Shown here: piece after piece, positions 7,913 through 58,795 of the stretch | Numbering within the stretch: the stretch's first letter is position 1 | How the letters are laid out: each line of letters opens with the position of its first letter | Source: Primula veris | Lineage: Eukaryota > Streptophyta > Magnoliopsida > Ericales > Primulaceae | Assembly: GCA_963682055.1 (NCBI GenBank) | Contig: OY821743.1 | Location: 15,163,566-15,227,565 of the forward strand | DNA length: 64,000 bases | Direction of reading: 5' to 3' | Position numbers and translations under genes: made by a program | Notes under the pieces: generated by a model | What the model saw: only the letters and a program-made list of their open reading frames with translations | The model's database searches: none | Told to the model about the DNA's origin: nothing

Positions 7913-7965
<53 letters not shown>

Positions 7966-33357: not shown

Positions 33358-33925
33358 TGATAAAGCCATAACTTTGGTGGGTCGCGTTAGGCTTTTCAAC
33401 AATGATATAATGGTAAATTAACCGTGAATAAAGGACACTTCCTGATCTTTATTATTGCTCGGATTATTATCCTTGTTCGGACTATTATATTTGCTCGGAT
33501 TAGTATTTCGGTTTTACAATTATGCTCGATATGACTATTTAATCTCTCGTCTTGATCTTTCTCCTCTTTTATTCGGTGCTCGGCTGTCTTTTCTCGGTTT
33601 ATTTCTCGAAGTGATATGCTTTGGTTAGTTTATCTCTTTTCTTAACTTCTCTCTATATTTTTTGGATAGATTTTCTGGTCCTTTTCTAGGAGGGGTAGTT
33701 GGCTATTTATAGGCAACTGCGCCTTCTGGGATATTGACAAATGTCTTCATCCCAGTGATTTTTCAGACATGGGTCCCCATTTGATTGGGCTTGGGCTTTT
33801 GGTAGTAACACCTCTATTCCTATAAAAAGTATGAGATGACCCATTTAAGCGTTGGATACCCATTTATAAAGTGGGTTGATTATTACCCGAATAAAACATT
33901 CGTCTCTAATTTTTATGTTCTATCA
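33358..33925 (-). repeat. Gypsy 3' LTR
   Basis: 568 bp; by eye it differs from the other LTR at about two positions (GGTGGGTCG for GGTCGGTCG near 33379, and CATTCGTCTC for CATTCGGCTC near 33900). Confidence 0.95.
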
Positions 33926-34168
33926 AGTGCTCCCTGACTTCCTCGGCGTGGTTTCCATGTCGGGGGAGTCATGTTTGGTTGGTCGATAACGTTACTTCGG
34001 TCTTGTCCTTCCCAATGCTTCATCGAGAAACGCAATAGACTTATGACGGTTCCCAGGGGGGCACATTTAATGTTTCCTATCTAATATCTTTCTTCGAGGA
34101 AAAATCCTATAAAGGGGTGTGCTCCCCCCATACTTTGGCATTTTACTTACTAATTTGCTCGTGACATA
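33926..34168 (+). promoter_or_regulatory. promoter region of antisense ORF 1
   Basis: It lies between the Gypsy 3' LTR and the first antisense ORF. TATAAA at 34108-34113, followed by GGGG, is 61 bp before the ATG at 34169. The minus strand next to the LTR (AGGGAGCACT) would be the polypurine tract region. Confidence 0.6.
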
Positions 34169-34489
34169 ATGGCTTCTTCAGGTTCTACTGATGAGAGCTC
34201 CTTTAATTATATTTCATATTTAGAAACGGAAATCAAGAAATCTCGTACCGCGAATAAGAAACTCGTGGCCAAGGTTTCAGACTACAAGAAAAGGTTGTCT
34301 AACATGGATTCTGATCATCATGTGACGATGGCCGATCGGGATTGGGCCTACGAGCATATAAAGAAGCTCGAGGCTAATCTGGCCAAACAGAAGGCAGCAA
34401 AAAGGGCCTATAAGCTTGCCTTCAAGGAGTTGCATGCTCGGTCTAAACCGAGTTCGGATGACGATGAAGAAGGCTCTTCCTCGAAATAA
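34169..34489 (+). CDS. antisense small ORF 1, coiled coil, 106 aa
   Basis: An intact ORF antisense to gag-pol. The protein is hydrophilic and mostly helical (heptad-like SYLETEIKKSRTANKKLVAK), with a Lys-rich C-terminal KRAYKLAFKELHARSK and then an acidic DDDEE-Ser tail. It has no membrane segment or known catalytic motif. A TATA box lies 61 bp upstream and AATAAA at 34569-34574, 80 bp past the stop, so it reads as a complete small transcription unit. ORF 2 at 34793 ends in nearly the same KRAYKLA-KE--ARSK segment, so the two are paralogues. I know no function for it; nucleic-acid binding or self-association would be guesses. Confidence 0.7.
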   Translation: MASSGSTDESSFNYISYLETEIKKSRTANKKLVAKVSDYKKRLSNMDSDHHVTMADRDWAYEHIKKLEANLAKQKAAKRAYKLAFKELHARSKPSSDDDEEGSSSK

Positions 34490-34735
34490 TTAGTCTTTTG
34501 TAATTTATGTCGTAATTTCTCTTGAATGGGGAGTCTTCTCCTCAGTTGTAATCGAAGTTTTTGAAATTAATAAAATATTTCCCTTTCCTTGTTCTTGTCT
34601 GTTTATCTTCTTGATGTCTTTTTGGATGACTTTAATTGGATTTAGAACTGTGGTTAATTCGCCTTAAATGCTCTTGGGAAGTTCAAGAGGTTGTATTTAT
34701 TTGAGATGACCTTTGATCTACTCCTTGTTTCTTCT

Positions 34736-34742
34736 TATAAAA
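34736..34742 (+). promoter_or_regulatory. TATA box of antisense ORF 2
   Basis: TATAAAA followed by GGGG, 57 bp before the ATG at 34793; same TATAAA-GGGG context as ORF 1. Confidence 0.65.
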
Positions 34743-34792
34743 GGGGACTGTCCCAGTATTCTTTATGCAGTTCATTCTTTATTAACGAACAA

Positions 34793-35131
34793 ATGGCTTC
34801 TCCTCTTGAAAACTATGGTGACAACCTTCCTGAATACGTTGCCCGTCTGGAAGAGGAAGTTCAGAAGGTGCGTTATCTCGAGAAGAGGGTTGCCCGGCTG
34901 TCGGTGGAAGCTCGTCGGGCCGCCGAACTAGACGAGCGATTGGATGCCCTAGAGAAGGAGCACCAGAGGTCTTTGCTCGACAGTATTCGTGCTCGTGCCC
35001 GGATCAAAGAGCTCGAGGCCTCCAGAGATAGGCAGCTTGCTTCCAAGAGGGCTTACAAATTGGCCCTTAAGGAAGTGTATGCTCGGTCGAAAAGGAAGCC
35101 GAATGACGAAGCGGGCCCTTCTATGAAATGA
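34793..35131 (+). CDS. antisense small ORF 2, coiled coil, 112 aa
   Basis: The ATG at 34793 is chosen because it follows the TATA box by 57 bp and starts MASP like its neighbours; the frame is open further upstream. The protein is a long charged coiled coil (YVARLEEEVQKVRYLEKRVA to about residue 85) with the C-terminal KRAYKLALKEVYARSK shared with ORF 1. AATAAA at 35193-35198 follows 62 bp after the stop. It is intact, unlike gag-pol on the other strand. No known family recognised. Confidence 0.7.
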   Translation: MASPLENYGDNLPEYVARLEEEVQKVRYLEKRVARLSVEARRAAELDERLDALEKEHQRSLLDSIRARARIKELEASRDRQLASKRAYKLALKEVYARSKRKPNDEAGPSMK

Positions 35132-35352
35132 TTTTATTGTTTTCATTGTATTTCCTCTTTGTGCTTCTTCTGTAACGAAGTATCAACCAATCAATAAAGA
35201 TTTCTTTTTCTTGTTTATATCTGAATTACTTTCCCAATGCAATTTATTTTGACTGCGCACGCTTGTGGCCTCATTAATGCTTTTCTTGGGCCTTGCGTTT
35301 GATCTTATCCATTGGACCTTCTTACTCTTTATATCTAGGGACCAATAGGATT

Positions 35353-35562
35353 TCTTGAGCCTTGTGCATAAAAAATCTTATTCACCAGAGTTTTCTTGAG
35401 CCTTGCGCAAAAGATCTGGGATATTTATTTGAACCGCTGCCCTTCCCAAAAACGACGCGTGTTTCAATGCCATTATTACTTGAGCTTTGTGCAAAAGATC
35501 TGGGATATTTATTTGAACCGCTGCCCTTCCCAAAAATGACGCGTGTTTTGCTGCCATCATTA
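35353..35562. repeat. 84-bp tandem duplication between antisense ORFs 2 and 3
   Basis: CTTGAGCCTTGCGCAAAAGA at 35395 recurs as CTTGAGCTTTGTGCAAAAGA at 35479, with the whole 84-bp unit repeated, including AAACGACGCGTG. A shorter first unit starts at 35353. Being upstream of ORF 3 it may be a duplicated promoter module. Confidence 0.85.
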
Positions 35563-35757
35563 CTTACTCTCTTTAAATATTGGTAAGAATCCAAACGTTT
35601 CTCGAACAGGAGTGGCTTTTAATTACTCACGCTCTTTAGAGTCTTTTGGGAATCCAAACGTTTTTCTTGAACAGACACCTCTTTTGAGTGCCATTGCTTC
35701 TGAATACCCATTGGCGAACGGTTGCGACTCTCAATCCCAGCCCTCATCTAATGGATC

Positions 35758-35763
35758 TATAAA
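35758..35763 (+). promoter_or_regulatory. TATA box of antisense ORF 3
   Basis: TATAAA in TCTATAAATACC, 92 bp before the ATG at 35850. Confidence 0.6.
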
Positions 35764-35849
35764 TACCTGCTTACAGCATGGTTACATCCACACTTCTCAT
35801 CATATTATTTTCCCCCATATATAGACCCTCATCTTATAATTTCCCTAAG

Positions 35850-36143
35850 ATGTCTGGTCCTTTCACCCAATCAGCATTAGCTTTGCAAGTGGAGGCCTTT
35901 GAAGCCTCCTATAACCATGTACAAAGGCTGTTGAGGGATGCCGAGGAGGAATTGAAGGTGATGCGTTATCACCATACCGAGATGGTTCGGGAATTAACTT
36001 GGCTAAGATCCGAACTGGCATACTGCCGACGTGCTCGTCAGGCTTTAGTCGAAGAGAATGAGATGCTAAGGGGGAACCCGACACTGAGGGACAGGGATGT
36101 CTCTGCCGGGCCCTCTCATCGATACCGATCGACTTCCCCCTAA
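35850..36143 (+). CDS. antisense small ORF 3, coiled coil, 97 aa
   Basis: Starts MSGPFTQSALALQVEAFEAS and runs as a charged helix with Arg/Glu heptads (LLRDAEEELKVMRYHHTEMV), ending in a Ser/Arg-rich tail. An in-frame ATG at 35778 would add 24 residues but lies at about the expected transcription start, so the later ATG is preferred. No AATAAA is near. A long T/C tract and a 20-bp tandem array follow. The MSGP start is shared with ORF 4. Unknown function. Confidence 0.6.
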   Translation: MSGPFTQSALALQVEAFEASYNHVQRLLRDAEEELKVMRYHHTEMVRELTWLRSELAYCRRARQALVEENEMLRGNPTLRDRDVSAGPSHRYRSTSP

Positions 36144-36144
36144 C

Positions 36145-36470
36145 CTTCCCCCTTCTTTTTTCTCCTTTTCTCTGCTTTTCCCCATCTTTTCCCATCCCTT
36201 CCTTTTTCTTTTTTTTTTTTTTTTATTTCTCCGTTTTCCATCATTTCTTCCTCTTCCTCTCTTGTGTTATTTTTTTTATACTCTGTTTTCTCGTACTTTT
36301 TATTTTTTTCTTTTCCCCTTTCTTTTTTGTTTCATTGACTTCCTTTTTAGTTGTCTGTCTCCTTCATCTCTTTATCTTCTTCTCATCTGTTTTTCTTATG
36401 TGCCTCCTCTTTCTTTTTCTTCATCTTCTCTCCCATCACTCTTTTTCTTTTTTCTCTTTTTTTGCACCAC
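36145..36470 (+). repeat. polypyrimidine (T/C-rich) tract
   Basis: More than 300 bp of almost pure T and C with CTTTTTC and TCTTCC units. It creates long spurious Phe/Leu/Ser ORFs. On the gag-pol strand it is a polypurine stretch. Confidence 0.85.
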
Positions 36471-36702
36471 TACGATGTAACAATCAGCCCTGTGATCCAA
36501 AGGGTTTTGTGTTACATTTAGGGTTGGTCATTTTTCTTTTTGACTCTTCTTTCTTATCACTTCTTCTTTTCTTGCACTCTTCTTCTTTTCCTCTTCTTGC
36601 TTTTCCTTTCTCTTTCTTCTTACTTTTTCTTTTTGGCGTCTCCTGCTCACTTGGTCAGCTGATATAGTTGATCCTTTGCCTGATCTTCTGTACTAGCTCT
36701 TC

Positions 36703-36860
36703 TCGGATGTAATAGATCTTTTCGGATGTAATAGATCTTTTCGGATGTAATAGGTTTTTATCTCGGATGTAATAGGTTTTCTTTTCGGATGTAATAGGTT
36801 TTTATCTCGGATGTAATAGACCTTGATGTAATAGACCTCGATGTAATATTGTCTATTGAT
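36703..36860. repeat. tandem array of 13-20 bp GGATGTAATAG units
   Basis: About eight copies of CGGATGTAATAGATCTTTT or its GGTTTTTATCT variant in a row, shortening to GATGTAAT at the right. It lies after antisense ORF 3. Confidence 0.9.
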
Positions 36861-37152
36861 GTAATGAACAATGATGTATTCCATCTTCATTAATGAAAAG
36901 TATTTTTGCCCTTTTATTTTTGCATTTCTTTTTATATTGTACCTGTGGTTTGTTGTTTGTCTGGAATCTAGATCTTTGAATATCTCGTCTTTATTTCTTC
37001 TGCACTGTAGTCTCAGATGTCAGTAGATGTCCCCATCACTGTCAAACATATGTGCATGCTCCCTAGTAGGTCAGGAAATGTGCATGCCCCCCAGCATGTC
37101 AGGAAATATGCAATTTCCCAAGCAAGGTCATAAAATATCATACTCTTCGTTC
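36861..37152 (+). promoter_or_regulatory. upstream region of antisense ORF 4
   Basis: Contains three spaced copies of GGTCAGGAAATGTGCATGC-like sequence (about 37020-37130), a plausible repeated cis-element ahead of the TATA box. Confidence 0.45.
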
Positions 37153-37158
37153 TATAAG
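37153..37158 (+). promoter_or_regulatory. TATA-like box of antisense ORF 4
   Basis: TATAAG in TTCTATAAGTAC, 103 bp before the ATG at 37256. Confidence 0.5.
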
Positions 37159-37255
37159 TACTTCTCTTTTCTTTGGTAGTTTATCATCTCTTTTTTCTTT
37201 TTGCTTCTCTCTTCCTCAGCCCTTTATTTTCTTCCGTACTAAACAATTTCCCAGA

Positions 37256-37735
37256 ATGTCTGGACCTGTGGTGAGATATCATGCTCAGATGAAGGGCTTG
37301 GACACTGAGGTATCTCGGGTCTGCCGTCGGATGGCAAGGCTTGAGAAAGAGTATGGCGTTTTGGCCTTGAGCTTGTTCGGCTCTTATCCCGAAGAGACGG
37401 TGAAGTGGACCGAGATCTCGGCACTGAGTCGCCAGCTCGATCACTTGTTGCTACAGAGAAACCATCTGGCCAACTCCTGGTATGATGCCGAGGAAATTTG
37501 GGACCATTCTCAAGATGAGTTTGACAACTCTCCTCAAGGCCTAGCTAGCATAATGGTAAAGAATGCTCGGCTCGTGGAGCGCGTCAGGGTTCTTACTACG
37601 GAAAACAACAGGCTCTCCTCGGAGAATGACGATTTGGTCGCCATGAACGATTCCTACCAAGCTCGGTTGAATTGTTCTGCTCGTATTTCTTTCTCTCGGT
37701 CTGGCAGTTCGGTTTTTCCACCCATTGATCCTTAG
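37256..37735 (+). CDS. antisense small ORF 4, coiled coil, 159 aa
   Basis: The longest of the five. It starts MSGP like ORF 3. There are two helical stretches (about residues 8-80 and 95-140, the second with VERVRVLTTENNRLSSEND, a leucine-zipper-like series), then a Ser-rich tail. It has no membrane segment and no recognised domain. The stop is followed by T-rich sequence without a clear AATAAA. ORF 5 starts 218 bp later with its own TATA box. Confidence 0.65.
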   Translation: MSGPVVRYHAQMKGLDTEVSRVCRRMARLEKEYGVLALSLFGSYPEETVKWTEISALSRQLDHLLLQRNHLANSWYDAEEIWDHSQDEFDNSPQGLASIMVKNARLVERVRVLTTENNRLSSENDDLVAMNDSYQARLNCSARISFSRSGSSVFPPIDP

Positions 37736-37878
37736 ATTGGGCTGGTTTTCTTATGTATTTCCCCTTTTGCCATTTGTGTTTTATCTTCTGTATTTGACGA
37801 ATCAGTTGTATCTTTTCGTATCTCGTGCCTGTCTTGTGAACCATTGTAACGCTTCGTATTTTGTGCCTTTTGATTCTC

Positions 37879-37884
37879 TATAAA
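37879..37884 (+). promoter_or_regulatory. TATA box of antisense ORF 5
   Basis: TATAAA in TCTCTATAAATGC, 75 bp before the ATG at 37954. Confidence 0.6.
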
Positions 37885-37953
37885 TGCTCCCTATTGCCTG
37901 TATCTCATTATCAATTTCTACCTCTCTTGTTTTATAATTTGCTTTTGCGTGAG

Positions 37954-38316
37954 ATGGCTCCCATAACTAGGTCTGCCTCCAAAAAGAAAGCCCTTATGGA
38001 AGAAGAGCCTACCTTTTTGCTACCTCATCCCCCTGGCTTTGGGGAGGAGGATTTGACTCCTCTTCAACTAAAAGAAATTGAGATGTCATGGCTGAAACAT
38101 GATCTCATGTGTGCTCGGACTGAAGCGAGGAGGTTTAAACAATATTGGGACGAGGAGGGCACTGCTCGTTTCAAGGCCGAGCAAAAATGCGAGTCTCAGT
38201 CTTACGCCTTGAAACAGGCTGAGATGGCGATTTCTCGTTTGGTTAGGGAGAAGAAGTGTCTGGAGGAACTTTTGGCGAAGAGGGATGTTGCTATGGGGGA
38301 TAGTTCGAAAAAGTAG
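37954..38316 (+). CDS. antisense small ORF 5, coiled coil, 120 aa
   Basis: Starts MAPITRSASKKK, a basic N-terminus that could be a nuclear signal, then a Pro-rich linker (LLPHPPGFGEEDLTPLQLKE) and a charged helix (about 50-110) ending GDSSKK. The ATG at 37954 is preferred to the open frame upstream because the TATA box is 75 bp before it. AATAAA at 38372-38377 is 56 bp past the stop. Intact. The MAPITRS start recalls retroelement-associated proteins, but I cannot place it in a family. Confidence 0.65.
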   Translation: MAPITRSASKKKALMEEEPTFLLPHPPGFGEEDLTPLQLKEIEMSWLKHDLMCARTEARRFKQYWDEEGTARFKAEQKCESQSYALKQAEMAISRLVREKKCLEELLAKRDVAMGDSSKK

Positions 38317-38377
38317 GATGGGTGTATTTTCTTTTTCTGTTGTATTGTTTGTGTTTCCCCCTTTGTGGATGAATAAA

Positions 38378-39018
38378 ACTTGTCTTGCATTTGATTCTGT
38401 CCTATTTTATTTCCTGTTTGCTTCTCTTTTATGTTTCTGAGCATACATCGAACAATATGCCCGGTTATCCCCCCGGAGAGCGTTGTTAGACTTGATGCTC
38501 CCTGCCATCAAGCTAGAAACGGTCTTCGTCCACCTTGTTCGGTGTGCCCTTGTGGTAAGGATTGGTTTGGGAGTCGAGGAACTTTAATCGGGGGATATTC
38601 TCGGTGTGATAGTAGTGGTAGCGTATGTGAGAAGCTTTTCGTGGTAGGGTCCACTGGCCGTTTATTTAGGTCTAATGATGTGAACTGCCTTGGGTAGTGG
38701 GATACGCGCTGACGTGGCGAAATCTGGAGCGTTTATATGTTAAAAAGAGCAGCGGTTGTTGATTTTTGTATGGTTGGAAAAAGGTAAACTTCTGTTACAC
38801 GAAAGGACGGTTATTATTTTATTCCTTTTGTGACTCCACTCCTTTCTATTATGCCAAGTAATCCTGTTTATTTTTATCACTGAATTTGCTGAAGAAAATA
38901 TCTCTCTCTCTCTAAAGCATATTCTTCCTGCCAAAAAGGAAAAGAATTCGGCCGCTTGATCTAGGGTTTCGTGGTTTTGTTGGAAGACTTGCTGCTGTTC
39001 GCGCTTGCTTGCTCATAA
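38378..39018 (+). other. gap and leader before the spliced antisense gene
   Basis: No ORF is convincing. TTTATATG at 38732-38739 is a weak TATA candidate, and (CT)n lies at 38900-38913. The stretch could be promoter and leader for the gene whose first exon is at 39019. Confidence 0.4.
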
Positions 39019-39159
39019 TGATTACTGTAAGTGATTTTTCGTTCTCCCCCCTTCCCTCTTTTAGGAGTTGTATTTGATTTGTCGTTGTGGTCATAGGTGT
39101 GTCGTTGGTATATGGTTCAGGTTATCTATATATGTCTGATGATTCTGATGTAATGTGTG

Positions 39160-39180
39160 TGTGTGGGGGGGGGGGGGTGG
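39160..39180 (+). repeat. GT/G-run in intron 1 of the antisense gene
   Basis: (GT)n followed by a run of about 11 G, then TGGTGG. Confidence 0.8.
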
Positions 39181-41466
39181 TGGCTCTCGTTCTATTGATG
39201 TGGTTCTGGTTTGTGTATTTGGTTAGTATATTGATGGACTTTTGATGATCTTTGGATAGGAAATTTTGACCCAAAGTGTGGCCCAAGTTGGCACATTCGT
39301 GGAAAACGATTTTAAGGAGCTTGCCGGAATACCTGACAACATACATATCCGGCTTCCTATTTCTGACGAGGAGGTGCTGGGATTTGTACCTGCCGGCGAG
39401 GTGGCTGTGCGCTCTTCGGCATTCTTCACTGGGGGTCTTCGACTGCCCTTTACAAACTGGGTGGCTTCGTTCTTTGAGGCCGTCCAGATTGCTCCGGCCC
39501 AACTGGCCCTAAATGGGTACCGTACTCTGAATGGTATCCAAAGGCTATCGGAGCTGTCCGGAATACCGATTGAACTGAAGGATGTCTTCGGAGTCTATAG
39601 TTTGAGCTTTGAGCGGCGCAGCTCGTATCTGAAAACCTTGCGTTCCTTTTGCCGGCTCGTCCTCGGATTGCCGGATACCAACAAAGAGCGCAATCTTGGT
39701 ATTGTTATTGCGTCTGGTGAATGGGCTTGTCCGGGACACCAGATCTCTGGGCCGGCTACCAATGCTCCCACTATGCCAGACCTCGGCGCTCCCAACGTAG
39801 AGGCTCTGTTAGCTCTTTGAAAATGGTGGGGGCCTGGACCTACGCCGGATCCTGCGAGTCGTACGGCTCCCATGCTGCTCGGTTACCCTATGGGGTCGGT
39901 GACCAGGGGGAATCCTGCACCCGAGATCCCCAAAGAGCCCTAGGAGGAATTCTTAAAGGTGGTCCAGGCTCGATGTGCTACTCGGCTTGGGAAAAAAGTC
40001 GTTCGTTCTAAGCGTCGTGCATCTGACCCTGTCGTTGAAACAACGAAGAGGGCTAGGGGAACCGATACATCGGTTACCGAGGAAGATGCTAACGTGGGCT
40101 CGGGCGAGGGGGTGTTTGCTGCTTCTCAAGGGGATACCGCCGAGGATGCCTCTGCGCCGGGCGAGGTATGTGTATATATATTATGACTTTCTTGTCTTTT
40201 GGTTGTTTGTCATTTTGTTCGCTAGTGCTTTGCTTTATTAGTCATCCTGTTTCAGCTACTGACTTCTCCATTGGTTACCCTCGCTCTTGCCCGGTCTATG
40301 GGTATTATTGTGTTTTAGGGGTCGATCGACGATGTATTCGGACATATGAACCTCTTGACTATCATGGGAGAGGGTACGATGACTTTGCCTGTCATCTCGC
40401 CTGTCCCCACCGAGGGTCCGATAGATTTGCCCGTTTGCTCGCCCCTCCGTACTGAGGAAGAGATCGAGCATAGGGCCCCTGAGATTGAGCAGTTGGAGGA
40501 GGACGTGGGGGTGGAAATGGAAGGCAGCGAAGAGAATGCCGGGGATGTTGTGACGGGTGTCGAGGATGAGGCTCTCGACGGATCCGAGAAGGTGTTGGTT
40601 GACGGGGTTGCAATGACCCGGTACATTGACCGATGTAGGGGTGAACTGCTGGAGCAACCGAGAACCTTGAAGATGGGGTATACGGCTCTGAAACCCCTTG
40701 TGTTCAAGGATGCAGAAAGACTATCTGCCCAATCTACAATGTCGGTTATAGGGCAGGCCCACGCGGATGCGCTGAGGGTACGTGGGGCTCGTATTTCACT
40801 ATATAGGTTTGGTACTTGTATTTTATTTGGAAACTAATGTGTTGAAGTGCAGATTGCTGTGAGTACCGTGGCGCTACGGGATCAGCTGGGAGCTCTAGGG
40901 GCTGAGAAAGAGAAGCTGGTGGCCGAGAAGGAGAAATTGGTCGCCGAGAAGAAAACCCTGGGCGAGAATTATGACAAGCTGTCGGTGGACTTTCTGCACC
41001 TGACCGAGGATGTCGAGAAATTGAAGGCAGAAAAAGAGAGCATGGCCGTTGAGTACGGCGAACTAGAGGAGGAGAACTTGCTCCTGGCTGAGGACGTGGA
41101 AGCCGAAAAGGCTAAGGTGTCTGCCCTGAAAACGGCAAATGCGGAGGAGCGGACAAAGTTAGCGATGATGGCCAACTTCTCTGTGTACTGCGCTCATGTG
41201 CGGGCGCTCAATTTCGCGAATGTTCCTTTGTCAGATAGGGCGTGGTCGGAGTTGGTGTATCCGTGTCCGCATGGTGCACCGCCGAAACCCTTGGACTGGG
41301 CGAATATTCGTGAAGAAGAGCTTCCTCGGCTACCGGGACAGACAATTTCGACAGCGCTGCGTCCTCACTCTATGCCGACCCCGTCCACTCCTCGACCGGA
41401 TGCTACTGTTGTTCCCCCACCAGTATCTCCTCAGGTGGAACCTTGACTATCTTTTTAGCAGTATGG

Positions 41467-41467
41467 A

Positions 41468-41498
<31 letters not shown>

Positions 41499-41500
41499 GG
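41467..41500 (+). repeat. (AT)n plus T-run in intron 4 of the antisense gene
   Basis: About eight AT units followed by about 14 T, between the exon 4 donor and exon 5 acceptor. Confidence 0.8.
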
Positions 41501-42284
41501 TCTCTTGTGTATCTAGAAACAGATTCTTTTGGGGAAGTGATAATATAGGTGCTGTGGTTTCTTTCTGTTGGGCTTTCTTGGGTTAATTTCTTTTGATGGT
41601 CGTCATATTTTGAAGGATATGAAAACAAAATATTGTCAGGTACCAAATAACCCCCTTGCCATGGTGGTCTGGTCCTCGCCTAGTCGTAGTGTAGGTGACG
41701 TAATGGAGGATTTGGAAAGGTCTAACGCGTCCCTTACCGCGAAATTGACTTGTGCTTATCAGGAAATCGAGGGTCTGAATGTTCATATTTCCAACTTGGC
41801 GATCCGGTTACGTGATTTGGGAGAGAAATTAAGTAAAAAGACCGCCCATTATACGGCAAATAAGGGTAAAGCAAAGGAACTTCTCGGTGCCCTACGACGT
41901 TCTCGTGATGAAGCCCGAGGTCGTGTGACGAGCTTGAGCTTGGTCCTTGGGGCCGTTTTCGAGGACGCGGATCTGCTGCTATCCTTTGCCAAAGCGTATT
42001 GGGCCCGAGCTCGCGCCTTAGAGGTGCTGGAGCATATAAAAGGAATGAGTGGTGTGTCCCGGGCAGAGCGCATGATGGATGCGAAGGCCGGGGTAACTGA
42101 AACCACTGTTGCCTTGAACCGAATCGAGGCGGTCATTCGTGAGCGTTTGGGGACGCAAATTAATTCATTGCGAGATATGCATTTTGCCGATGTAGTAGAG
42201 ACTTCGGCGTCTGTTGAGGGGTTGTCGGATTAATAAAATAGCTTGTTTTGTCGTTTTCTTTGTAGCTTGCATATAAAAAAAATT

Positions 42285-42420
42285 CTCTCCTTTTTTTTTT
42301 TTTTTTTGTAGCTTCTTGCTTCTTTTTGTTTTTTTTTTTGTTTTTTTTTTTTTTTTTTTTTTTTTATTTTTTTTTTATATTCATCTCTTCTCGTTCGTCT
42401 CCCCCCCTCTTTTTTTTATA
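42285..42420 (+). repeat. T-rich tract
   Basis: Long T-runs ending in TTTTTTTATAG, which would make a strong 3' splice site for the next ORF at 42422. A TATAAAA lies at 42272-42278 as an alternative promoter. Confidence 0.8.
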
Positions 42421-42421
42421 G

Positions 42422-43072
42422 GCACATGCTACTATGTCGCACCAGGCTGGTTCTCCATGCCTAGTTAACCCGGGGTTAGGACCTACTGGTGCTGCCCGGG
42501 ACGAGGTCTCATCTGGTGCGGCTAGTGAGGTGCATGACAGGTGGCCCTACATTGTTTTGATGAGCAAAAATGTCAAATTGATCGACCAATGTGCTCGACT
42601 GCGGACCAAGCTGAAAACCCAGGCGGCCTCTTTTCGAGAATACGTTCACCGTGCCGAGCATGCTGTTGAGGTTCAGGAGCGTCGTTTGGATCGATATTGG
42701 CGTGCAAAGGGCGAGTACTTCGGCAAATTAAAGTTGCTTGTGACCAAGGCCAACGTGTTGGTGAAGTATTTCCGTTTGTCCCGTGCCAGATACGATGTTT
42801 CCGCAGCTGTGATCGAAGCTCGCCGTAACCTCTCCTTTGACGATGATCGCCGTAAAGCGGCCTCGGATGCTCACGAGTTCGCCAAAGAAGCCGAGTTCAA
42901 CGCGCGGCTTCAGACGCTGACTTGTGTTGGGGCTCATACGACCAATTTTGATGCCCTCATTTCTGAGGAGCGTTTTGATGGTGATGAGTCTGATGGGTAC
43001 ACAACGACGGATGACGAAGAGATTGAGCTCGGTCAATTACCGTCGTGCTCCTCCTGCAGTAGCTCTTCTTAA
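42422..43072 (+). CDS. antisense ORF 7, coiled coil, last exon or separate gene
   Basis: The frame is open from the AG at 42420-42421; the first ATG is at 42434, giving 212 residues. The protein is charged and helical in the middle (YVHRAEHAVEVQERRLDRYW) with a short Ser/Cys-rich end (SCSSCSSSS) after an acidic stretch. It may be a sixth exon of the antisense gene by alternative splicing or its own transcript. I see no strong in-phase donor at the end of exon 5, which favours a separate unit. Intact. Family unknown. Confidence 0.55.
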   Translation, partial: AHATMSHQAGSPCLVNPGLGPTGAARDEVSSGAASEVHDRWPYIVLMSKNVKLIDQCARLRTKLKTQAASFREYVHRAEHAVEVQERRLDRYWRAKGEYFGKLKLLVTKANVLVKYFRLSRARYDVSAAVIEARRNLSFDDDRRKAASDAHEFAKEAEFNARLQTLTCVGAHTTNFDALISEERFDGDESDGYTTTDDEEIELGQLPSCSSCSSSS

Positions 43073-43366
43073 ATGAATCTCTTTAGTGTCGTTGATCTTC
43101 TTGTTGCCTCCGTAATGCGGGCGAGGACTATATATGTTATTTCTTTATTCCTGTTTTGTACCTTTCCATTGCCGTATTGCTATTTAATTGATTGGATCGA
43201 TTTTTCCTTGCTAAATCATTTGTTATTTCGTTATTCCTGTTTTGGAGATGCTTCTTGTTGATATTTTGTTGTTTAGATTGATTCTCCTTCATTGTTTTAG
43301 CCAATTTATATTGCATCGCCACCGTAATGTGGACCTGAATAATTCCTTGCATTGTACCTGCATATA
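43073..43366. other. noncoding spacer in the Gypsy element
   Basis: AT-rich, no gene seen; leads into the 86-bp array. Confidence 0.5.
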
Positions 43367-44293
43367 AATTTCATAGTATTCCTAGGCGTTCCTTCGGTAA
43401 CACGCCATGTTGGGAATTTCATAGTATTCCTAGGCACTTCGGCCATGTTGGGAATTTCATAATATTCCTAGGCGTTCCTTCGGTAACACGCCATGTTGGG
43501 AATTTCATAGTATTCCTAGACGTTCCTTCGGTAACACGCCATTTACGGAATTTCATAGTCTTCCTAGGCACTTCGGCCATGTTGGGAATTTCATAGTATT
43601 CCTAGACGTTCCTTCGGTAACACGCCATTTACGGAATTTCATAGTATTTCTAGGCACTTCGGCCATGTTGAGAATCTCATAGTATTCCTAGACATTCCTT
43701 CGGTAACACGTCATTTACGGAATTTCATAGTATTTCTAGGCACTTCGGCCATGTTGAGAATCTCATAGTATTCCTAGACGTTCCTTCGGTAACACGCCAT
43801 TTACGGAATTTCATAGTATTTCTAGGCACTTCGGTCATGTTGAGAATCTCATAGTATTCCTAGACGTTCCTTCGGTAACACGCCATTTACGGAATTTCAT
43901 AGTATTTCTAGGCACTTCGGCCATGTTGAGAATCTCATAGTATTCCTAGACGTTCCTTCGGTAACACGCCATTTACGGAATTTCATAGTATTTCTAGGCA
44001 CTTCGGCCATGTTGAGAATCTCATAGTATTCCTAGACGTTCCTTCGGTAACACGCCATTTACGGAATTTCATAGTATTTCTAGGCACTTCGGCCATATTG
44101 AAAATCTCATAGTATTCCTAGACGTTCCTTCGGTAACACGCCATTTACGGAATTTCATAGTATTTCTAGGCACTTCGGCCATGTTGAGAATCTCATAGTA
44201 TTCCTAGACGTTCCTTCGGTAACACGCCATTTACGGAATTTCATAGTATTTCTAGGCACTTCGGCCATGTTGAGAATCTTATAGTATTAGTAG
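43367..44293. repeat. tandem array, about 86-bp dimeric unit, about 10 copies
   Basis: Each unit joins a 48-bp half (ATTCCTAGACGTTCCTTCGG, then TAACACGCC) and a 38-bp half (ATTTCTAGGCACTTCGGCCA). Both halves begin with AAT-TCATAGTATT, so the dimer arose from a roughly 40-bp monomer. Copies in the middle are nearly identical; those at the left edge are less regular. It lies just past the end of pol, in the element's 3' untranslated region. Ogre-type Tat elements are known to carry such arrays there and to seed satellites. Confidence 0.95.
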
Positions 44294-44391
44294 ACAGCAT
44301 AATAATATATTTTATTCATTCAAAAGAAGAAAGATAATGCCATTAAGCAAGAAGGGTAAGGTAGCACCTGTACTTGTATTCGGAGCATTGC

Positions 44392-47322
44392 CTATACGTA
44401 GTACTTCTTTAAGTTAGCCACATTCCAAGAATTCTTTTCCCCTCGGCTGTTGGCGAACAGGTAGCTTTTGATTTTGTAAGAGACTGGACTTGTTCGCTTG
44501 ACGACTTCGTATGGGCCTTCTTAGGTAGGGCTTAGTTTGCCATGTATTTCGTTGCGGGTATAGACCGTCACTCGTCGCAGCACCAGTTCTCCTACCATGA
44601 ATTCTTTGGATCCTTTTACTCTCTTGTCATAAGTTTGTTTCACGCTTTGTTGGTATTTGGCTAGGGTAAGGGCTGCTATCTCTCGTTTCTCGTCTATCAT
44701 GTCGAGCTCTTCTCTCATTCTTTGTTCATTATTTCCCTGCTCGACCAACGTCGTTCGGAGCGTGGGTAGCCCGATCTCTGTCGGTATGACGGCCTCAACA
44801 CCGTATGCTAAGCTAAACGGGGTTTCCTTGGTGCCCGTCTTGGGTGTAGTTCGGCACGACCATAAAACGTTGAGTAGCCGCTCGGGCCACCTCCCCTTTG
44901 CCTGTTCAAGGGTGGTCTTGATGCCGTCTAATATTGTTCGGTTTGACACTTCGGCTTGCCCGTTCCCTTGTGGGTATGTCGGCGTCGAATAGAATTTTCG
45001 GATACCGAGTTCCTCGTACCACAGCTGTAAATTGGCATCTTTGAACTAGGTTCCGTTGTCGGCGACTATAGCGTACGGAATACCGAACCTAGTTATGATG
45101 TATTCCCAAATGAATTGTTTGACGTTGCTGGCTTTGATTTCTCGGAGGGGTTTAGCTTCGACCCATTTGGTGAAATAATCAGTCGCAACGATCAGATATT
45201 CCACATTCCCAGGTGCTCTTGGGAGTTTACCGACCAAATCAATTGCCCATTGAGCGAACGGCCATGGTGCTGATACCGGGGTCATCATAGATGAAGGGAG
45301 CCGTGGTATCTTGGCGAATCGTTGGCACTTGTCGCATCGTTGGACGTATGCATCGGCGTCTCGCTTGATATAGGGCCACCAATATCCTTGGGTCACTGCC
45401 TTGTTTGCAAGGGATCGCCCTTTGATGTGTGCTCCGCAAGATCCTTCGTGGATTTCCTCCAAGACCGGCAGTTGTAGCTCGGTCGGGACGCACAGTAGAT
45501 GTGGTCCCCGGTAACTGGATTTGTATAGTTTATCGTCCTCGGATAGCCAGAAGCGAGGAGCTTTTCTTGTAATTTTCAGCGCTTTTATCTTGTCGACCGG
45601 AAGCGTTCCACTTCGCAGATAATGGGTCATGTCCTCCATCCAACCTAGTTCGTACTGTATCGATGTCACCCGGTTTACCCTTTTTATTATGCTCGGGGTC
45701 GGCAGTAGTTCCACTGTGATCGACCGGGTGTCGGTCAATGTTAATGTCGAGGCTAGGGTGGCCAATGCATCAGCATGTGCATTCTCGGTGCGATTGATTC
45801 TTACTAACTCGCACTGTTCGAAGGTGGCCATCAAGCTTTGGACTTTCTCTTGGTAGAGGATCATTCTATCATCTTTCGCTTGGTACTCGCCGATGGCTTG
45901 ATTGACGATGAGCATGGAGTCTGAGCTTGCAATTAAGTGGGAGCATCCGAGGGACCGGGCAATAAGCATGCCATTTATCATGGCCTCGTATTCTGCCTCA
46001 TTGTTGGTAGCTCGGAAGCCCAGTTTTATGCTTTTTTCGATGATTGCTCCCTCTCTAGACTTTAGGACGATCCCTGCTCCTGATCCGTCCTTGGTGGCTG
46101 ATCCGTCGACATGTATCTGCCAGTGTGATTGGGGAGAGAGTGCCAAAGGCTCGTCATAGCCTTCGGTGAATTCTGCGACGAAATCGGCCAGGACTTGTCC
46201 CTTTATGGCATGGCGGGGTGCGAACTCGATATGAAATTGGGATAGTTCGACCCCCCAGGCGGCAACTCGGCCGCTAATGTCCGTCCGTCGAAGTGACTCT
46301 TTAATATGAAATTTTGTGTATACCCGGACCTGATGAGCTATGAAATAGTGTGGCAACTTTCTGGTTGCGACGACCAATGCCAGACACAGCTTTTCCAAGG
46401 GTAAATAACGTGTTTCGGCTTCGACCAGAGTCTTGCTGACGAAGTAGATCGGAAATTGTTCGCGACCTTCTTCTCTTAGGATAACTGCGCTCACAGCTGT
46501 AGTGGAAACTGCTAGGTAGCATGCCAGAATGTCTCCTTTGTTCGGCCTTACTAGCAGTGGCAGCGTCCTCAAGTACTCTTTGAGATTGTTGAATGAAGCT
46601 TCACATTCCGGGTCCCAGACGAATTTTCTATCCTTCTTGAGTGATTCGAAAAATGGCCGTCCCTTATCTGCGGATCGTCTAATGAACCTGCTCAGCGCGG
46701 CCATCATTCCCGTGAGCTCTTGTACCTGTTTCTTATTCTTGGGTGCTGCTAGGTTTCGTAGAGCCGTTATTTGATCGGGATTAGCCTCTATTCCTCGTCG
46801 GCTAACCATATGTCCCAAGAATTTCCCTTTGCTGATGCCAAATGCACACTTGCTCGCATTGAGTTTCAGTTTGTGCTCGCCCAGCGTTCGGAAAACGTCC
46901 CTGATATCTTGAAGGTGGGATGTGGCTCTTTCGCTTTTGACGACCATGTCGTCTATGTATACCTCCATCGTCTTCCCTATATGATCTCGACATACCCTTG
47001 TTATCATCCTTTGGTATGTTGCTCCCGCATTGCGTAGGCCGAACGGCATTACCGTATAGCAATAATTTCCCAAAGGTGATATAAACGAAGTCTTTTCTTG
47101 ATCTTCGCGGGCGAGGGGAATTTGATGGTATCCTGAATATGCGTCAAGGAAGGTCATCCGTTCTGCCCCCGCAGTTGCGTCCACCAGTTGATCAATCCTT
47201 GGAAGGGGAAAGTGGTCCCTCGGACAGGCTTTGTTGAGGTTTGTGAAGTCTATACATACTCTCTCCTTCCCGTTCTTCTTAGGGACGACAACCGGGTTGG
47301 ACAACCATTTTGGATAGTAAAC
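44392..47322 (-). pseudogene. Gypsy pol: RT, RNase H, second RNase H, integrase
   Basis: One continuous frame, interrupted by TAG at 45046-45048 and TAA at 44521-44523. In order: reverse transcriptase with VYIDDMVV (about 46940); the gypsy RNase H; a second RNase H of archaeal type with HVDGSA (about 46100), NNEAEYEA, SDSML and HADALA; the integrase zinc finger (HEGSCGAH and CDKCQRF, about 45440-45310); and the catalytic Asp in IDLVGK and VADNGT, with the last acidic residue in PQGNGQAE. A chromodomain is not seen. Dual RNase H is a Tat-lineage mark. The stops make it unable to yield a full product. Confidence 0.92.
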
Positions 47323-48690
47323 CTATCTTATGGCTCCAGCTTCCAATAACTTTTGTACTTCAGCGATTATAGCTGCTCTGTGCTGTACAGACACTTTCCT
47401 GCTCCTCTGTGCTATCGGCTTGTACTCGGTGTTTACACTTAGGTGGTGGCATGCCGTATTGGGGTCTAGGCCCGGCATATCTTTAGGACTCCAGGCGAAT
47501 TTATCAGTGTTGTTGAGAAGGAATGCTTTCAACTCCTCGGATTCTTGTTTTGGAAGGTTATCGCCGAGGAGGAAGTAATGCTCCTCGTCCATATCTGGTA
47601 TATACACCTTCCTGAGTGTCTCTCCTACTTGTTCTTCGACCACCCTTTCGGCTTTGGATATTTGGTTGATCAGCTTCTTTGTGCTGGTGGGTTGTTCCAC
47701 AGTGCTTCGTTGTTTTTGGAGAGTCGCGGCGATGTCCTCGCAGCGTTTTGAATCTTCTTGACATCCTCTGGCTGTCTCGATCGCTCCCCTATCATTTGGG
47801 TATTTGACCTTTTGGTGATAGGTCGAGGGTATGGCCTTCATGGCATGTAACCAAGGTCGGCCCAATATTGCGTTGTGCCCGGAGTGGTCGTCGACCACTA
47901 AGAACTCCACGGGAACCGACATGGACCCTGTTGTGACGCTGAGGACGATCTTACCCAACGGTTTGGTCGTTTCGGAGATGAATCCGATCAGTGTGACATC
48001 GGTAGGCTGTAGATCTTGCAGCTTGAGTTCCATCTTGTCGAATAGCTCCTTGTACATGATATCACAAGAGGCTCCTTGGTCGACAAGTACCCTGCTGACT
48101 GTGTCTAGGCCGATTTGAACACGGAGGTTAATGGCGTCTCCGTGGGGGTAAATCAACCCTTCTTCGTCAAGATCCGAGAAAGAAATGGGCGGATGTCGTC
48201 GTGGTGTGCATTGTCGTTTAGAGGTCGACGCCTGTGATGTCTTGGATACTTGGCCAAAGTGGGCCAGCTGCCGTTGTCGTGATCGTTCCCCGCCTGGGCC
48301 CTTGGGTCGTGACATATGAACGACGTTGATCATTTTGCCTTGCCGGTTGTCAGATCCCTCGATGGCCAGTTGTTTGCCTTTATTCCCAGCTCCTTTGATG
48401 AACTTGGCTAGATATCCTGCATCGCCCCACTGGTTCATTCTCCATCGCAGGTTACGGCAATGCTCAGTGAGATGGCCATGATCCTCGTGATATGCGCAGA
48501 AGAGCTTGGAATCTCTCTGATTGGGGGGAGAGATGATCGGTTGTGGTCGGGAATACCAACTTTCCCTGCATATATCCTTGAGGATATCTTCAGCAGATAG
48601 GTTGAAAGTGTATCGCAGCTCGACCGGTCCGAAAGTGTTTCGGTGTTCCCTCTCTTGGGGCCGAACCTGTTGAAATGGCTTGGGTGGCAT
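47323..48690 (-). pseudogene. Gypsy zinc knuckle, protease and RT start
   Basis: Same frame as gag before it and RT after it, cut off by a TAG at 47323-47325. It holds a knuckle-like CAYHEDHGHLTEHC (about 48510), and the protease with VLVDQGASCDIM, where the motif is DQGA rather than the usual D-S/T-G-A, followed by HNAILGRPWLHAM. The start of RT (AEVQKLLEAGAIR) comes just before the stop. Confidence 0.88.
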
Positions 48691-48702
48691 CGGGTAGGCG
48701 AG

Positions 48703-50310
48703 CTAGAGCGGTTTATGTTCGTTGGTCGGTGTTGGGTATGCGATCTGGAGCGGTTTGGGCTCTAGTGCTCGTGGTCGCTCTACCTTGCTATGGACCTCGG
48801 GCTCTTTGCCCTTTCTGGTCGGTTGGAATGCTTCTCCCTGGTTATTTCTAACTCTTTTGCGACCCACCTGTGCCTCACGGACCGACTCTCTTCTCGGTAG
48901 AGTTCGGTTGAGGAAACGCAGTTCGTCGTTTTTATCGGTGAGGTGGGTACAATAGGCTAGCAGGGAATCAGTGGTCGGGAAGTTTTTGCCTATGAACTTC
49001 CTTCTCGCCCAATAGCCATTAGGGATGGAATTGATAAAGTTTTGGATGGCTATATTATTGGCATATCGTGGAATCTGGTTTGCTACGTCGATAAAACGTA
49101 TGCAGTAATCGCTGAGCCTTTCATTTGGCATCATCGTCATTTTAAGAAGGGTTTCGATACTAACCTTCTTTTTCCGATGAGCAGCGTATCGGGTGGAGTA
49201 TGCTCTTAGCAATTCTGCCCAGTTTCTAATGGAGCCCCGTGGTAAGTTATGATACCATGACGAAACCTCTTGACCCAAGCTGTTTTTGAAAAATTTGCAC
49301 ATCAGTGCATGGTCATCACTCCACAGTTCCATCTTTGTCTTGTAGTGCCTCAGATGGTCGATAGGGCAACTCTTCCCATCATAGAGCCTGAATTCGGGGA
49401 TGACGAATCCCATAGGATTGCGGTACCGCGTGATCTGTTCAGCACACGGGGTTTCTTGGCATACGTTCCAAGCCTGTTGGAACGCGTCATCCGTGACTTG
49501 GTAGGGGGGAGGGTATCCTCCCTGATGTGGTGATGGGCCATATCCCTCCCCGATCCTGTATTCGGGATATCTATCGTCCTTCGTGTTTGTGTGGACACGT
49601 TCCATATGAGTGTTCGGATGGACGATAGTTATTGGGACATTGCCCCCTTGGTGGGGGACTCTTGTATCGGGTCGCCGACCCGCTGCCTCCAGGGCGGCCC
49701 TGTAGGCAGAATCTTCCACTTCATGGCGTGGGTCTTTGTCGGGTTGGATAACTGGCAATACGATGCCGGCCGCTGTCATGGCCGTCATGCATGCCGCCAG
49801 CTGAGCTTGTAGCTGGGCGTAGTTCCTTTCATCGGCTAATGGAACAACATGTTGTACCTCCACCGTGGGTGGTGTAATCATCCTCGGAGAATTAGTCGGT
49901 AGTCGGGGCGACTGTCCGAGTACATGATCCTCGGGCATGCCAAACTGATGAGCTTTGTCCGTTTGTAAACGAGCACCGGAGTTGACCGAGGCTGTAGGCA
50001 AAGGGACTCTTGAGCTCGGCCCTGCTTGGGACCCGGTTAAGAGTCTTCGTGCACGCCTTAATACAGGCACGTCTTGTTCGTCCTCCGAGGACGAAAGGTG
50101 TTCGTCGACAACCCCTTCGATGAAATGTCGGGGTGGTTCGACCGGTTGTTCTTGGTTGACGTAGGAGGTTGTTGGTTGGTTTCCGGATTGGATAGCTTCA
50201 TATCTGTTGCGGATAGCGAGTAGATCGTCGAGGTCTTGTTGGCTAATTTGCGTGTTTTGGTTATTGGTTTCTACTATCTCGGGATGGGTTTCCTCTACAT
50301 TGGTAACCAT
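48703..50310 (-). pseudogene. Gypsy Gag
   Basis: 536 codons from the ATG at 50310, ended by TAG at 48703-48705, after which the same frame continues into protease. The N-terminal third is low in complexity and variable. The Retrotrans_gag domain spans about residues 310-450, with FFKNSLGQEVSSWYHNLPRG and the WAELLRAYSTRYAA segment. A basic C-terminal part follows. The ATG is about 60 bases inside the primer site side of the LTR. The stop after Gag could be a normal gag/pol boundary or decay; as the same frame has three more stops, I favour decay. Confidence 0.88.
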
Positions 50311-50389
50311 TGTCGCTCGTCTGGCAGAGTATTGGTATTCGAATTCTAAACTAGTTGGGAACTAGATGATTCCCGGAGACGGCGCCATT
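50311..50389 (-). promoter_or_regulatory. Gypsy leader and primer-binding site
   Basis: On the minus strand, two bases after the 5' LTR end, TGGCGCCGTCTCCGGGA (50387-50371) resembles the tRNA-Asp primer site used by Athila and Tat elements (TGGCGCCGTTGCCGGGGA). A short leader leads to the Gag ATG at 50310. Confidence 0.85.
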
Positions 50390-50957
50390 TGATAAAGCCA
50401 TAACTTTGGTCGGTCGCGTTAGGCTTTTCAACAATGATATAATGGTAAATTAACCGTGAATAAAGGACACTTCCTGATCTTTATTATTGCTCGGATTATT
50501 ATCCTTGTTCGGACTATTATATTTGCTCGGATTAGTATTTCGGTTTTACAATTATGCTCGATATGACTATTTAATCTCTCGTCTTGATCTTTCTCCTCTT
50601 TTATTCGGTGCTCGGCTGTCTTTTCTCGGTTTATTTCTCGAAGTGATATGCTTTGGTTAGTTTATCTCTTTTCTTAACTTCTCTCTATATTTTTTGGATA
50701 GATTTTCTGGTCCTTTTCTAGGAGGGGTAGTTGGCTATTTATAGGCAACTGCGCCTTCTGGGATATTGACAAATGTCTTCATCCCAGTGATTTTTCAGAC
50801 ATGGGTCCCCATTTGATTGGGCTTGGGCTTTTGGTAGTAACACCTCTATTCCTATAAAAAGTATGAGATGACCCATTTAAGCGTTGGATACCCATTTATA
50901 AAGTGGGTTGATTATTACCCGAATAAAACATTCGGCTCTAATTTTTATGTTCTATCA
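50390..50957 (-). repeat. Gypsy 5' LTR
   Basis: 568 bp, TG...CA, with TATAAAAAGTATGAGA-like promoter sequence on the plus strand and a TATTTATAGG site. Nearly identical to the other LTR. Confidence 0.95.
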
Positions 50958-53897: not shown

Positions 53898-53977
53898 TTG
53901 GAGCTATTGTTTGGATAAGAAGGAAGCTATTCTTATAAGACAATATGGAATATCCAAAGTAGCTGTTTGTCTTTGAT

Positions 53978-58149: not shown

Positions 58150-58490
58150 AGTTGGAGAAGAAAGGAGAGGGAGAGTTTCTTTCTCCTAGGGTTCTTTTCT
58201 CAGAAAAATGAAGAGCTGGAAATGAAGAGGTGGAGAAGACAAATGTTATTATTACATCTATTATCACTTTAGTCCCTCAAGTTTACTCCACTATGCTATT
58301 GAATCCAAGCTTCTCAGTTTTCGGATTTTAAGTTTCTATTAATTCAATTGACTGTAATAGTTTGGTTTTATATTTTTGGGGTCATAAAGTTTGTAAGTAT
58401 CTTCACAATTACTTTTGTTTCACCGTGGGGTTATTTTTCCCTCCGGTTTTCATTAATAAAATGTGGGCTTCCCACTAATTATTTAAAAAA

Positions 58491-58795
58491 ATTATCCAAA
58501 CAGCACTCTTGAGCTTGAGGTTTCCATAGCTGCTTCCTTTCGTACTTCTGCTAGGCCTTTCATTCTCTTGGTCGTTTCTTTTTAGCAGGCCCCCTTTACC
58601 CTATTTGGTTACAACACCAAATAGAGAACCTAACAAGAAACACAAAAAAACAGCAGTACCTTGCAAAACAAACAAGTAGGATGGTAAAGCCAGCTATACT
58701 GAAAAACAGATTACCTGTATCATAGTAAGATAAAACGGAGACAACTCTCTTATGCCCTTTGATCTCAATAATCATCATTTTTTAAAAATTTATCA
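58491..58795 (-). other. noncoding, probable 3' region of the minus-strand LINE relic
   Basis: No ORF. It precedes, in plus coordinates, the zinc-knuckle relic at 58796. Confidence 0.4.

Follow-up and report, generated by a model that had tools for sequence, protein, structure and literature searches.

Several plant long terminal repeat (LTR) retrotransposons are known to carry accessory open reading frames (ORFs) in antisense orientation between pol and the 3′ LTR, among them Grande (with gene23), RIRE2, Retand and PvRetro13 (PMC7264820). Transcription of Grande gene23 reportedly starts from a promoter upstream of the gene itself (PMC7264820). A survey of Retand elements, which counted ORFs of at least 600 bp, or shorter if they belonged to TRP28, describes 104 antisense ORFs for 63 clusters; TRP28 (Transposase_28, PF04195) is found, antisense between pol and the 3′ LTR, in 97% of the recently active clusters, and the regions from pol to the 3′ LTR measure 2,933 to 6,566 bp (PMC11963269). 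Another survey of plant LTR retrotransposons, for the class of ORFs named eORF-3′R, required at least 250 codons, and most of the proteins it reports are without a known domain (PMC6317226). There is also mention of an 'ORF3/4' in Retand-2, and of several extra ORFs in the Tat/Athila elements of Arabidopsis (PMC11728184). Two of these sources state that no function is known for the antisense ORFs of Tat elements (PMC11963269, PMC7264820). Here we analyze a Tat-lineage Gypsy element that carries, in the same place and orientation, a row of five small ORFs, which we call O1 to O5. The element lies in a stretch of 64,000 nucleotides of Primula veris (assembly GCA_963682055.1, contig OY821743.1, positions 15,163,566 to 15,227,565), hereafter the window, whose own numbering is used throughout.

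Very probably, O1 to O5 are protein-coding genes under purifying selection, with one order kept in diverged arrays of the same genome. The conserved boxes that precede them suggest that each is probably transcribed from its own TATA promoter. We give a probability of about 0.75 to the overall reading, in which a Tat-lineage Gypsy element carries the row as an accessory array of separate antisense genes.

Five small antisense genes and their candidate signals

All five ORFs are intact and lie on the + strand, opposite to a gag-pol frame that has four in-frame stops. O1 (34169-34489, 106 codons) and O2 (34793-35131, 112 codons) start with MAS, O3 (35850-36143, 97 codons) and O4 (37256-37735, 159 codons) with MSGP, and O5 (37954-38316, 120 codons) with MAP. 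Each ATG is preceded by a TATA box, at a distance of 61 bp for O1 (34108..34113), 57 bp for O2 (34736..34741), 92 bp for O3 (35758..35763), 103 bp for O4 (37153..37158, which reads TATAAG) and 75 bp for O5 (37879..37884). An AATAAA is found 79 nt past O1 (34569..34574), 61 nt past O2 (35193..35198) and 55 nt past O5 (38372..38377). A preliminary description of this DNA had reported the ORFs with their starts, the distances of the boxes, the three AATAAA signals and the opposite gag-pol frame with its stops, and we confirm all of them.

With the start of transcription placed at TATA+30, the leaders are 27-73 nt long and free of ATG in all five cases, and the first ATG opens the ORF. In-frame ATGs further upstream exist for O2 (giving 141 codons) and O3 (giving 121 codons), and both precede the expected start sites. 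TATAA[AG] occurs seven times on the + strand of 34000-38420, five times before O1-O5 and twice within O1. The content of guanine and cytosine is 50% in O1-O5 and 36% in the DNA between the ORFs. Between O3 and O4, at 36693-36890, we also observe a run of short repeats around GGATGTAATAGGTTTT.

How often would such a row arise by chance? We generated 1000 Markov sequences of the region at first order and another 1000 at second order, and counted the ATG-initiated ORFs of at least 97 codons per strand. The mean is 0.35 for first-order and 1.09 for second-order sequences, with a maximum of 4, and none of the 2 × 1000 trials has five such ORFs on one strand. The real region has two other long ORFs, one of 127 codons on the + strand (36097-36480) and one of 110 codons on the − strand. 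The former, the sixth ATG-initiated ORF of the + strand, is T-rich, overlaps the end of O3, would encode a hydrophobic product, and is probably due to chance. We also searched for the layout of a box followed by an ORF, defined as a first ATG within 80 nt after TATA+30 that opens at least 90 codons. This layout follows only 2 of the 144 boxes that the window has outside the element, and none of the 7 boxes on the − strand of the region.

Conservation in close copies and in diverged arrays

Copies were sought in the same 436.5-Mb genome. The O4 protein finds 1706 candidates at first look (a loose count) and a query with the reverse transcriptase (RT) finds 3213, and 150 were scored in each case. 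Thirty loci (L001-L030, where L001 is the window copy) were ranked by their match to O4, which biases the intactness of O4 and leaves O3 and O5 unselected; pieces with O1 and O2 (L031-L050) come from the copies L002-L021, for which neither ORF was a selection criterion. O4 is stop-free in 148 of the 150 scored copies, as ranked by O4 match. O3 is found in 28 of the 30 loci and is intact in 26, while O5 is found in all 30 and is intact in 28, the window copy being included in both counts. Of the 20 other copies, 17 contain a complete O1, which is intact in 16 of them, and 19 a complete O2, which is intact in 18. A less biased sample takes every 7th RT match from rank 7 to rank 105, for 15 copies of 2.4 kb each. 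In this sample O4 is found in 13 copies, complete in 12 and open in 11 of those 12; for O5, 9 of the 15 copies have a complete open frame and 2 a broken one, 1 is truncated at the edge of the piece, and in 3 we do not see the gene.

It is tempting to take the intactness of these ORFs as evidence in itself, as the preliminary description did when it pointed out that they stay open while gag-pol has four stops. That argument has to be given up because the difference is an effect of length. A gag-pol frame of at least 1978 codons is kept in 32 of 150 scored copies, which corresponds to a loss of 7.8e-4 per codon and predicts that 91-93% of the copies of O1, O2, O3 and O5 should be intact, in agreement with the observed 16/17, 18/19, 26/28 and 28/30. 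By this comparison, the small genes decay like gag-pol after insertion, and selection before insertion is what maintains them.

A test that does not depend on intactness is to ask which changes the copies tolerate. We took the mutation spectrum from the spacers, and excluded copies in which the length of the ORF differs from that in the window copy (one each in O2, O3 and O5). Variants shared by at least two copies comprise 20 nonsynonymous, 28 synonymous and 0 stop changes, where 35.1 of the 48 would be expected to alter the protein (ratio 0.26, p = 4.7e-6). The ratios per gene are 0.58 for O1, 0.24 for O2, 0.20 for O3, 0.22 for O4 and 0.25 for O5. Variants private to a single copy comprise 97 nonsynonymous, 84 synonymous and 3 stop changes, where 134.8 of the 184 would be expected to alter the protein (ratio 0.43). 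Private variants are nearer to neutral and still constrained, as would be expected if constraint acts during transposition and fades after insertion.

Gaps tell a similar story. Per 100 bp, O1-O5 show 0-0.34 gap events, against 1.3-5.5 for all but one of the seven promoter and spacer segments; the exceptional segment, the 169 bp after O2, has 0. The TATA regions of O4, CTATAAGTA, and of O5, CTATAAATG, are exact in 27 and 28 of 29 close loci. Since close copies match the background in this respect, the conservation of the boxes is informative only against diverged arrays.

A database protein, P0002, which is 79% identical to O4, led us to a diverged type of O4 in the same genome, with 1439 candidates at first look and 127 of 150 scored copies stop-free. 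We took eight arrays of this type in rank order, disregarding their integrity. All of O1-O5 are present, in the same order, in the eight arrays. Relative to the window copy, the identity of O4 is 78-80% in all eight. That of O1 is 55-64% in five arrays and 91-93% in three, and that of O2 is 72-80% in five and 83-96% in three. O3 has 58-61% in three arrays, 83-85% in two and 92-97% in three, and O5 has 73-79% in five and 88% in one, while a frame break splits it in the other two. Three of the eight arrays (L062, L063 and L066) are mosaics with window-like O1-O3 (83-97%) and a diverged O4 (~79%), a case of recombination within the array.

The ratio of nonsynonymous to synonymous substitution rates (dN/dS) against the window copy is 0.19-0.35 for O1, 0.12-0.36 for O2 (with 0.50 in one fragment of 4 codons), 0.13-0.23 for O3 in five of eight comparisons (synonymous sites being saturated in the other three), 0.10-0.17 for O4 and 0.06-0.26 for O5; the dS of the diverged genes is mostly 0.4-1.2 or saturated. 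To avoid imposing a frame, we also counted differences by codon position in nucleotide alignments with four of the eight arrays. The counts for positions 1, 2 and 3 are 59, 58 and 108 in O1, 60, 49 and 132 in O2, 60, 37 and 104 in O3, 78, 56 and 222 in O4, and 54, 41 and 154 in O5. Third positions are in excess in all five genes (p between 1.9e-5 and 1.8e-30 by chi-square, for four comparisons that are not independent of each other). The spacers between the ORFs can also be aligned, with free gaps, at a nucleotide identity of 0.70-0.87 over aligned columns, and because they are alignable, the argument for constraint rests on codon positions and gaps.

Every one of the 40 genes that the eight diverged arrays contain has a TATA box 55-107 bp upstream. 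In the four arrays with the greatest divergence, the boxes of O1, O2, O3 and O5 have all retained TATAAA, whereas the average retention of the remaining hexamers in those stretches is 0.15, with 9% present in all four arrays. The TATAAG that precedes O4 in the window is TATAAA in these four arrays, as it is in all eight. Thus, of the proposal of a battery of separately transcribed small genes, made in the preliminary description, the part that stands is that of separate, selected genes: the ORFs are conserved between copies with few stops, at a ratio of 0.26 for the shared variants of close copies and a dN/dS of 0.06-0.36 against the diverged arrays (the fragment of 4 codons aside), with boxes in 40 of 40 cases.

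We searched for RT beside four of the diverged arrays, and found it beside three of them, running opposite to the array, with 94-95% protein and 88-91% DNA identity to that of the window. By their sequences, the diverged arrays appear to belong to related elements, and to no distant family, with an array that has diverged more than the RT. The disparity is that of the three copies with RT (L082, L084 and L085, with L059, L066 and L062), where the RT is 88-91% identical in DNA while the dS of O4 is 0.7-0.9. Array and RT seem to differ in history or in rate.

A number of observations weigh against the reading of O1-O5 as selected, separately promoted genes. Taken alone, the shared variants of O1 (6 nonsynonymous and 4 synonymous, p = 0.20) and the private variants of O2 (p = 0.12) are non-significant, and the p values for close copies assume independent variants, when related copies are not fully independent. 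Close copies preserve the TATA 9-mers to no greater degree than other 9-mers (the share of 9-mers preserved at least as well is 0.15-0.55). The diverged types of O1 and O2 are carried by five arrays only, given the mosaics. While 31 of the 40 genes in the eight diverged arrays are open and initiated by ATG, O2 is broken in 3 arrays, O5 in 3, O1 in 1 and O4 in 1, and the start codon of O5 is ATA in one array. In a simulation of point mutations, O4 alone would neutrally reach 79% identity with its frame open in 15% of the cases. An AATAAA lies behind only three of the five ORFs, and under a codon usage trained on gag-pol the true frame comes out ahead of the other five in just two of the five ORFs, O2 and O3. 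Moreover, a search of O1-O5 against Pfam returns no family at the cut-off, and a structure search with the model of O4 no match at E ≤ 0.001 (best E = 0.25), so any role has to be argued by analogy.

Proteins, proposed role and competing explanations

The preliminary description took all five products to be short, charged coiled-coil proteins. A coiled coil is plausible, as O2 is predicted to form one helix (residues 12-100, with a predicted local distance difference test score, pLDDT, of ~97 over most of it) and O4 to form three, at a moderate mean pLDDT of 73. O1, O2 and O5 are charged (36-42% of residues). They are not of one kind, however. O1 and O2 are paralogues (BLASTP 2.8e-11, hhalign probability 99.3, 38% identity), and both are open at an identity at which simulated point mutations leave ~2% open. 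We rejected a common origin of all five, for which O1/O2 is the sole match and the other hhalign pairs reach at most 2.2. O3, O4 and O5 have no hhalign match to O1/O2, to each other, or to T4, T5 and the coiled part of the TRP28-type gene (further predicted products of the antisense strand, described below, compared as single sequences). Protein searches find two relatives per query, none informatively named, and we find no relative in scans of viral contigs with O4, pol and O1, or of bacterial and archaeal genomes with O3. From the predicted helices of O2 and O4 and from the charge, the products are likely to be small proteins with a coiled coil, through which they would pair with their own kind or with partners.

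What could an element gain from such a row? In the explanation that we propose, five short genes sit antisense between pol and the 3′ LTR, beside a spliced TRP28-type gene and two further ORFs, and RNA polymerase II would transcribe each small gene from its own TATA promoter and not from the LTR. Because the genomic RNA needed for transposition must stay uncut, antisense carriage would be the best solution for several promoted genes, one of them intron-bearing: on the sense strand, poly(A) signals and introns would shorten or splice that RNA, and on the opposite strand they would do neither. The proteins could also be produced at times when the LTR promoter is inactive. The cost would be an RNA able to pair with the genomic RNA, and so to feed small-RNA silencing. 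The least certain step is the last one, in which the products, as small helical oligomerizing proteins, would aid the cycle of the element in the nucleus, most likely via its chromatin or its silencing. Such a nuclear or chromatin role, argued by analogy, is doubtful at present. More speculative yet is the idea of an antisense accessory genome, of some eight separately promoted and partly intron-bearing genes from several unrelated families, that would act jointly against silencing or on chromatin and independently of the LTR promoter. If true, it would be a retroelement counterpart to the multi-gene equipment of complex retroviruses, carried on the strand that is unable to damage the genomic RNA.

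Separate promoters are not the only way to express a row of ORFs. They could be read from one long antisense transcript, or from an antisense promoter in the 3′ LTR, by means of splicing or re-initiation and with the TATA boxes being incidental. The antisense genes of the human T-lymphotropic virus (HTLV) do use a 3′ LTR promoter (PMC7264820), T5 has a start that resembles a splice acceptor, the TRP28-type gene has three proposed introns, and close copies, as we have seen, keep the boxes no better than background. What makes this unlikely in our view is that a box precedes each of the 40 genes of the diverged arrays at 55-107 bp, that the layout of box and ORF is so rare elsewhere in the window (2/144), and that a long transcript might be terminated prematurely at the AATAAA behind O1, O2 or O5. 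A more radical proposal is that the arm acts as antisense RNA, through small RNAs or RNA regulation, with the ORFs as bystanders. Antisense transcripts that pair with genomic RNA have been discussed as an alternative (PMC7264820), but an RNA function would not favor synonymous change, and the frame-specific constraint on codon positions, with a dN/dS of 0.06-0.36, leaves this highly improbable.

The remaining two explanations concern origin rather than expression. O1/O2, O3, O4 and O5 form four groups that lie together although we detect no relation between them, and gene capture by plant LTR elements has been published (PMC7264820), so one may think of captured host genes or of a nested element, hitch-hiking and now decaying. 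The full set predates the split of the diverged arrays, and is constrained on both sides of it, which refutes a recent capture; an old capture followed by long service may have taken place, as the protein searches covered no named plant genes. Overall we regard hitch-hiking passengers in decay as quite unlikely. Finally, a young element may simply not have had time to lose its chance ORFs, and with LTRs that differ at 2 of 568 sites the window copy alone says little on this point. The absence of five such ORFs from the Markov controls argues against it, and conservation in the diverged arrays refutes it, so that the probability left to chance is negligible. We favor the reading of O1-O5 as an array of separate antisense accessory genes.

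The host element and its place among known systems

The element is a complete LTR retrotransposon of 17.6 kb (33358-50957), delimited by an LTR pair and a target-site duplication. The 3′ LTR (33358..33925) and the 5′ LTR (50390..50957), both of 568 bp and on the − strand, differ at 2 of 568 sites, and the 5-bp target-site duplication AGATC is found on both outer sides of the pair; the element is a young, complete copy. A probable primer-binding site, TGGCGCCGTC, adjoins the 5′ LTR. The gag-pol runs in a single frame on the − strand from 50361 to ~44394, and Pfam identifies in it gag, protease, RT, RNase H, a second RNase H-type domain (RVT_3) and integrase. An extra RNase H (aRH) marks the Tat lineage, and in the angiosperm Ogre/Retand it sits between RNase H and integrase (PMC6317226). 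We assign the element to the Tat lineage because RVT_3 falls between these two domains, the order in the pol frame being RT_RNaseH 271-363, RVT_3 405-523 and Integrase_H2C2 612-669. A gag-pol frame of 1989 codons is kept in 27 of the 150 scored RT copies, and autonomous copies of the element may exist.

The interval between pol and the 3′ LTR (33926-44393) measures ~10.5 kb, and the antisense genes described here are all on its + strand; an 86-bp tandem repeat array (43367..44295) lies between pol and the antisense arm. Past the row of small genes, a TRP28-type gene (39018-41446) is modeled with four exons and keeps its frame across all junctions. We compared it, together with two further ORFs, with eight copies (L051-L058), one of which (L053) matches no segment. 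Exon 1 (39018..39026) has its GT donor in 7 of the 7 alignable copies. Exon 2 (39260..40165), with the weak match to Transposase_28 (PF04195), has two in-frame stops in the window. It is found in 7 of the 8 other copies and is stop-free in 5 of these 7, one of them with a +1/−1 pair of gaps; the remaining two have stops at other places, and one has a 2-base shift. Exon 3 (40319..40777) is stop-free in 7 of 7 copies, and exon 4 (40853..41446) in the 6 aligned from its start, while one has a 1-base gap. GT or AG stands at 41 of the 42 intron ends proposed for the gene (6 sites in each of 7 copies).

Of the two further antisense ORFs, T4 (41661..42233, 190 aa) is open in 5 of 7 other copies, and T5 (42434..43072, 212 aa), preceded by a pyrimidine tract and AG, in 6 of 7. 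The antisense arm probably comprises eight genes: O1-O5, the TRP28-type gene, and the candidates T4 and T5. The preliminary description knew of a large antisense ORF from Grande and Retand. One is also present here, and the arm extends beyond the five small genes to which that description was confined, with two ORFs more.

The leader of the TRP28-type gene (38900-39020) has CT repeats and the 8-base string TAGGGTTT, which we take to be a telo-box-like motif. The string occurs in 8 of 8 fetched arms, including the otherwise unmatched L053, and may do so by chance. Identity to the seven other copies is 92-94% in exon 2, 94-98% in exon 4, and mostly 97-99% in exon 3, T4 and T5, and from the lower identity of exon 2 the element looks mosaic. 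Elsewhere in the window, two inverted repeat arms of 1156 nt (52743-53898 and 57336-58491), 98% complementary, lie 3437 nt apart, and 2734-10143 holds many diverged, loosely repeated units of ~85-130 nt (families D2-D6, D10 and D11).

How does this array compare with what has been described? It resembles the TRP28 ORFs of Retand in being antisense between pol and the 3′ LTR, in an interval that there often holds tandem repeats, in belonging to a recent insertion and in including a TRP28-type gene. The match to TRP28, a trait of Retand, is weak here (17.5 bits against a cut-off of 26.2, E = 0.005), while its place and strand fit. O1-O5 (291-477 bp) are below the 600-bp cut-off of the Retand survey, and the interval of ~10.5 kb is outside its range of 2.9-6.6 kb, which is the range of a survey and not a definition. 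O1-O5 also fall in the same class of placement as the eORF-3′R, and none of them would reach the 250 codons required there (PMC6317226). As the two surveys set their limits at 200 and 250 codons, small antisense genes may be widespread and yet have been overlooked. As a candidate functional analogy, by description, we may consider VANC, the accessory proteins with which the VANDAL transposons of Arabidopsis counter host silencing (PMC5735166, PMC10398659), with the difference that VANDAL is a DNA transposon, an element of another kind. The high copy number in Primula veris (1706 loose O4 candidates) makes transcription, protein interaction and effects on silencing testable in one plant.

Our literature search, which covered few subscription journals and does not establish priority, found no description of such an array. 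The preliminary description had supposed an undescribed type of cargo, and here we differ: the array is a variant, within Tat/Retand elements, of antisense accessory ORFs that were already known, and no new kind of cargo. Compared with Grande, RIRE2, Retand and PvRetro13, for which the consulted parts of the source describe no such row (PMC7264820), the Primula element has five small genes, each preceded by a TATA box, and three larger antisense genes or ORFs. As far as we have checked, what is new in it is the number of genes, the presence of five small and separate ones, the box before each, and the selection measured on each of them.

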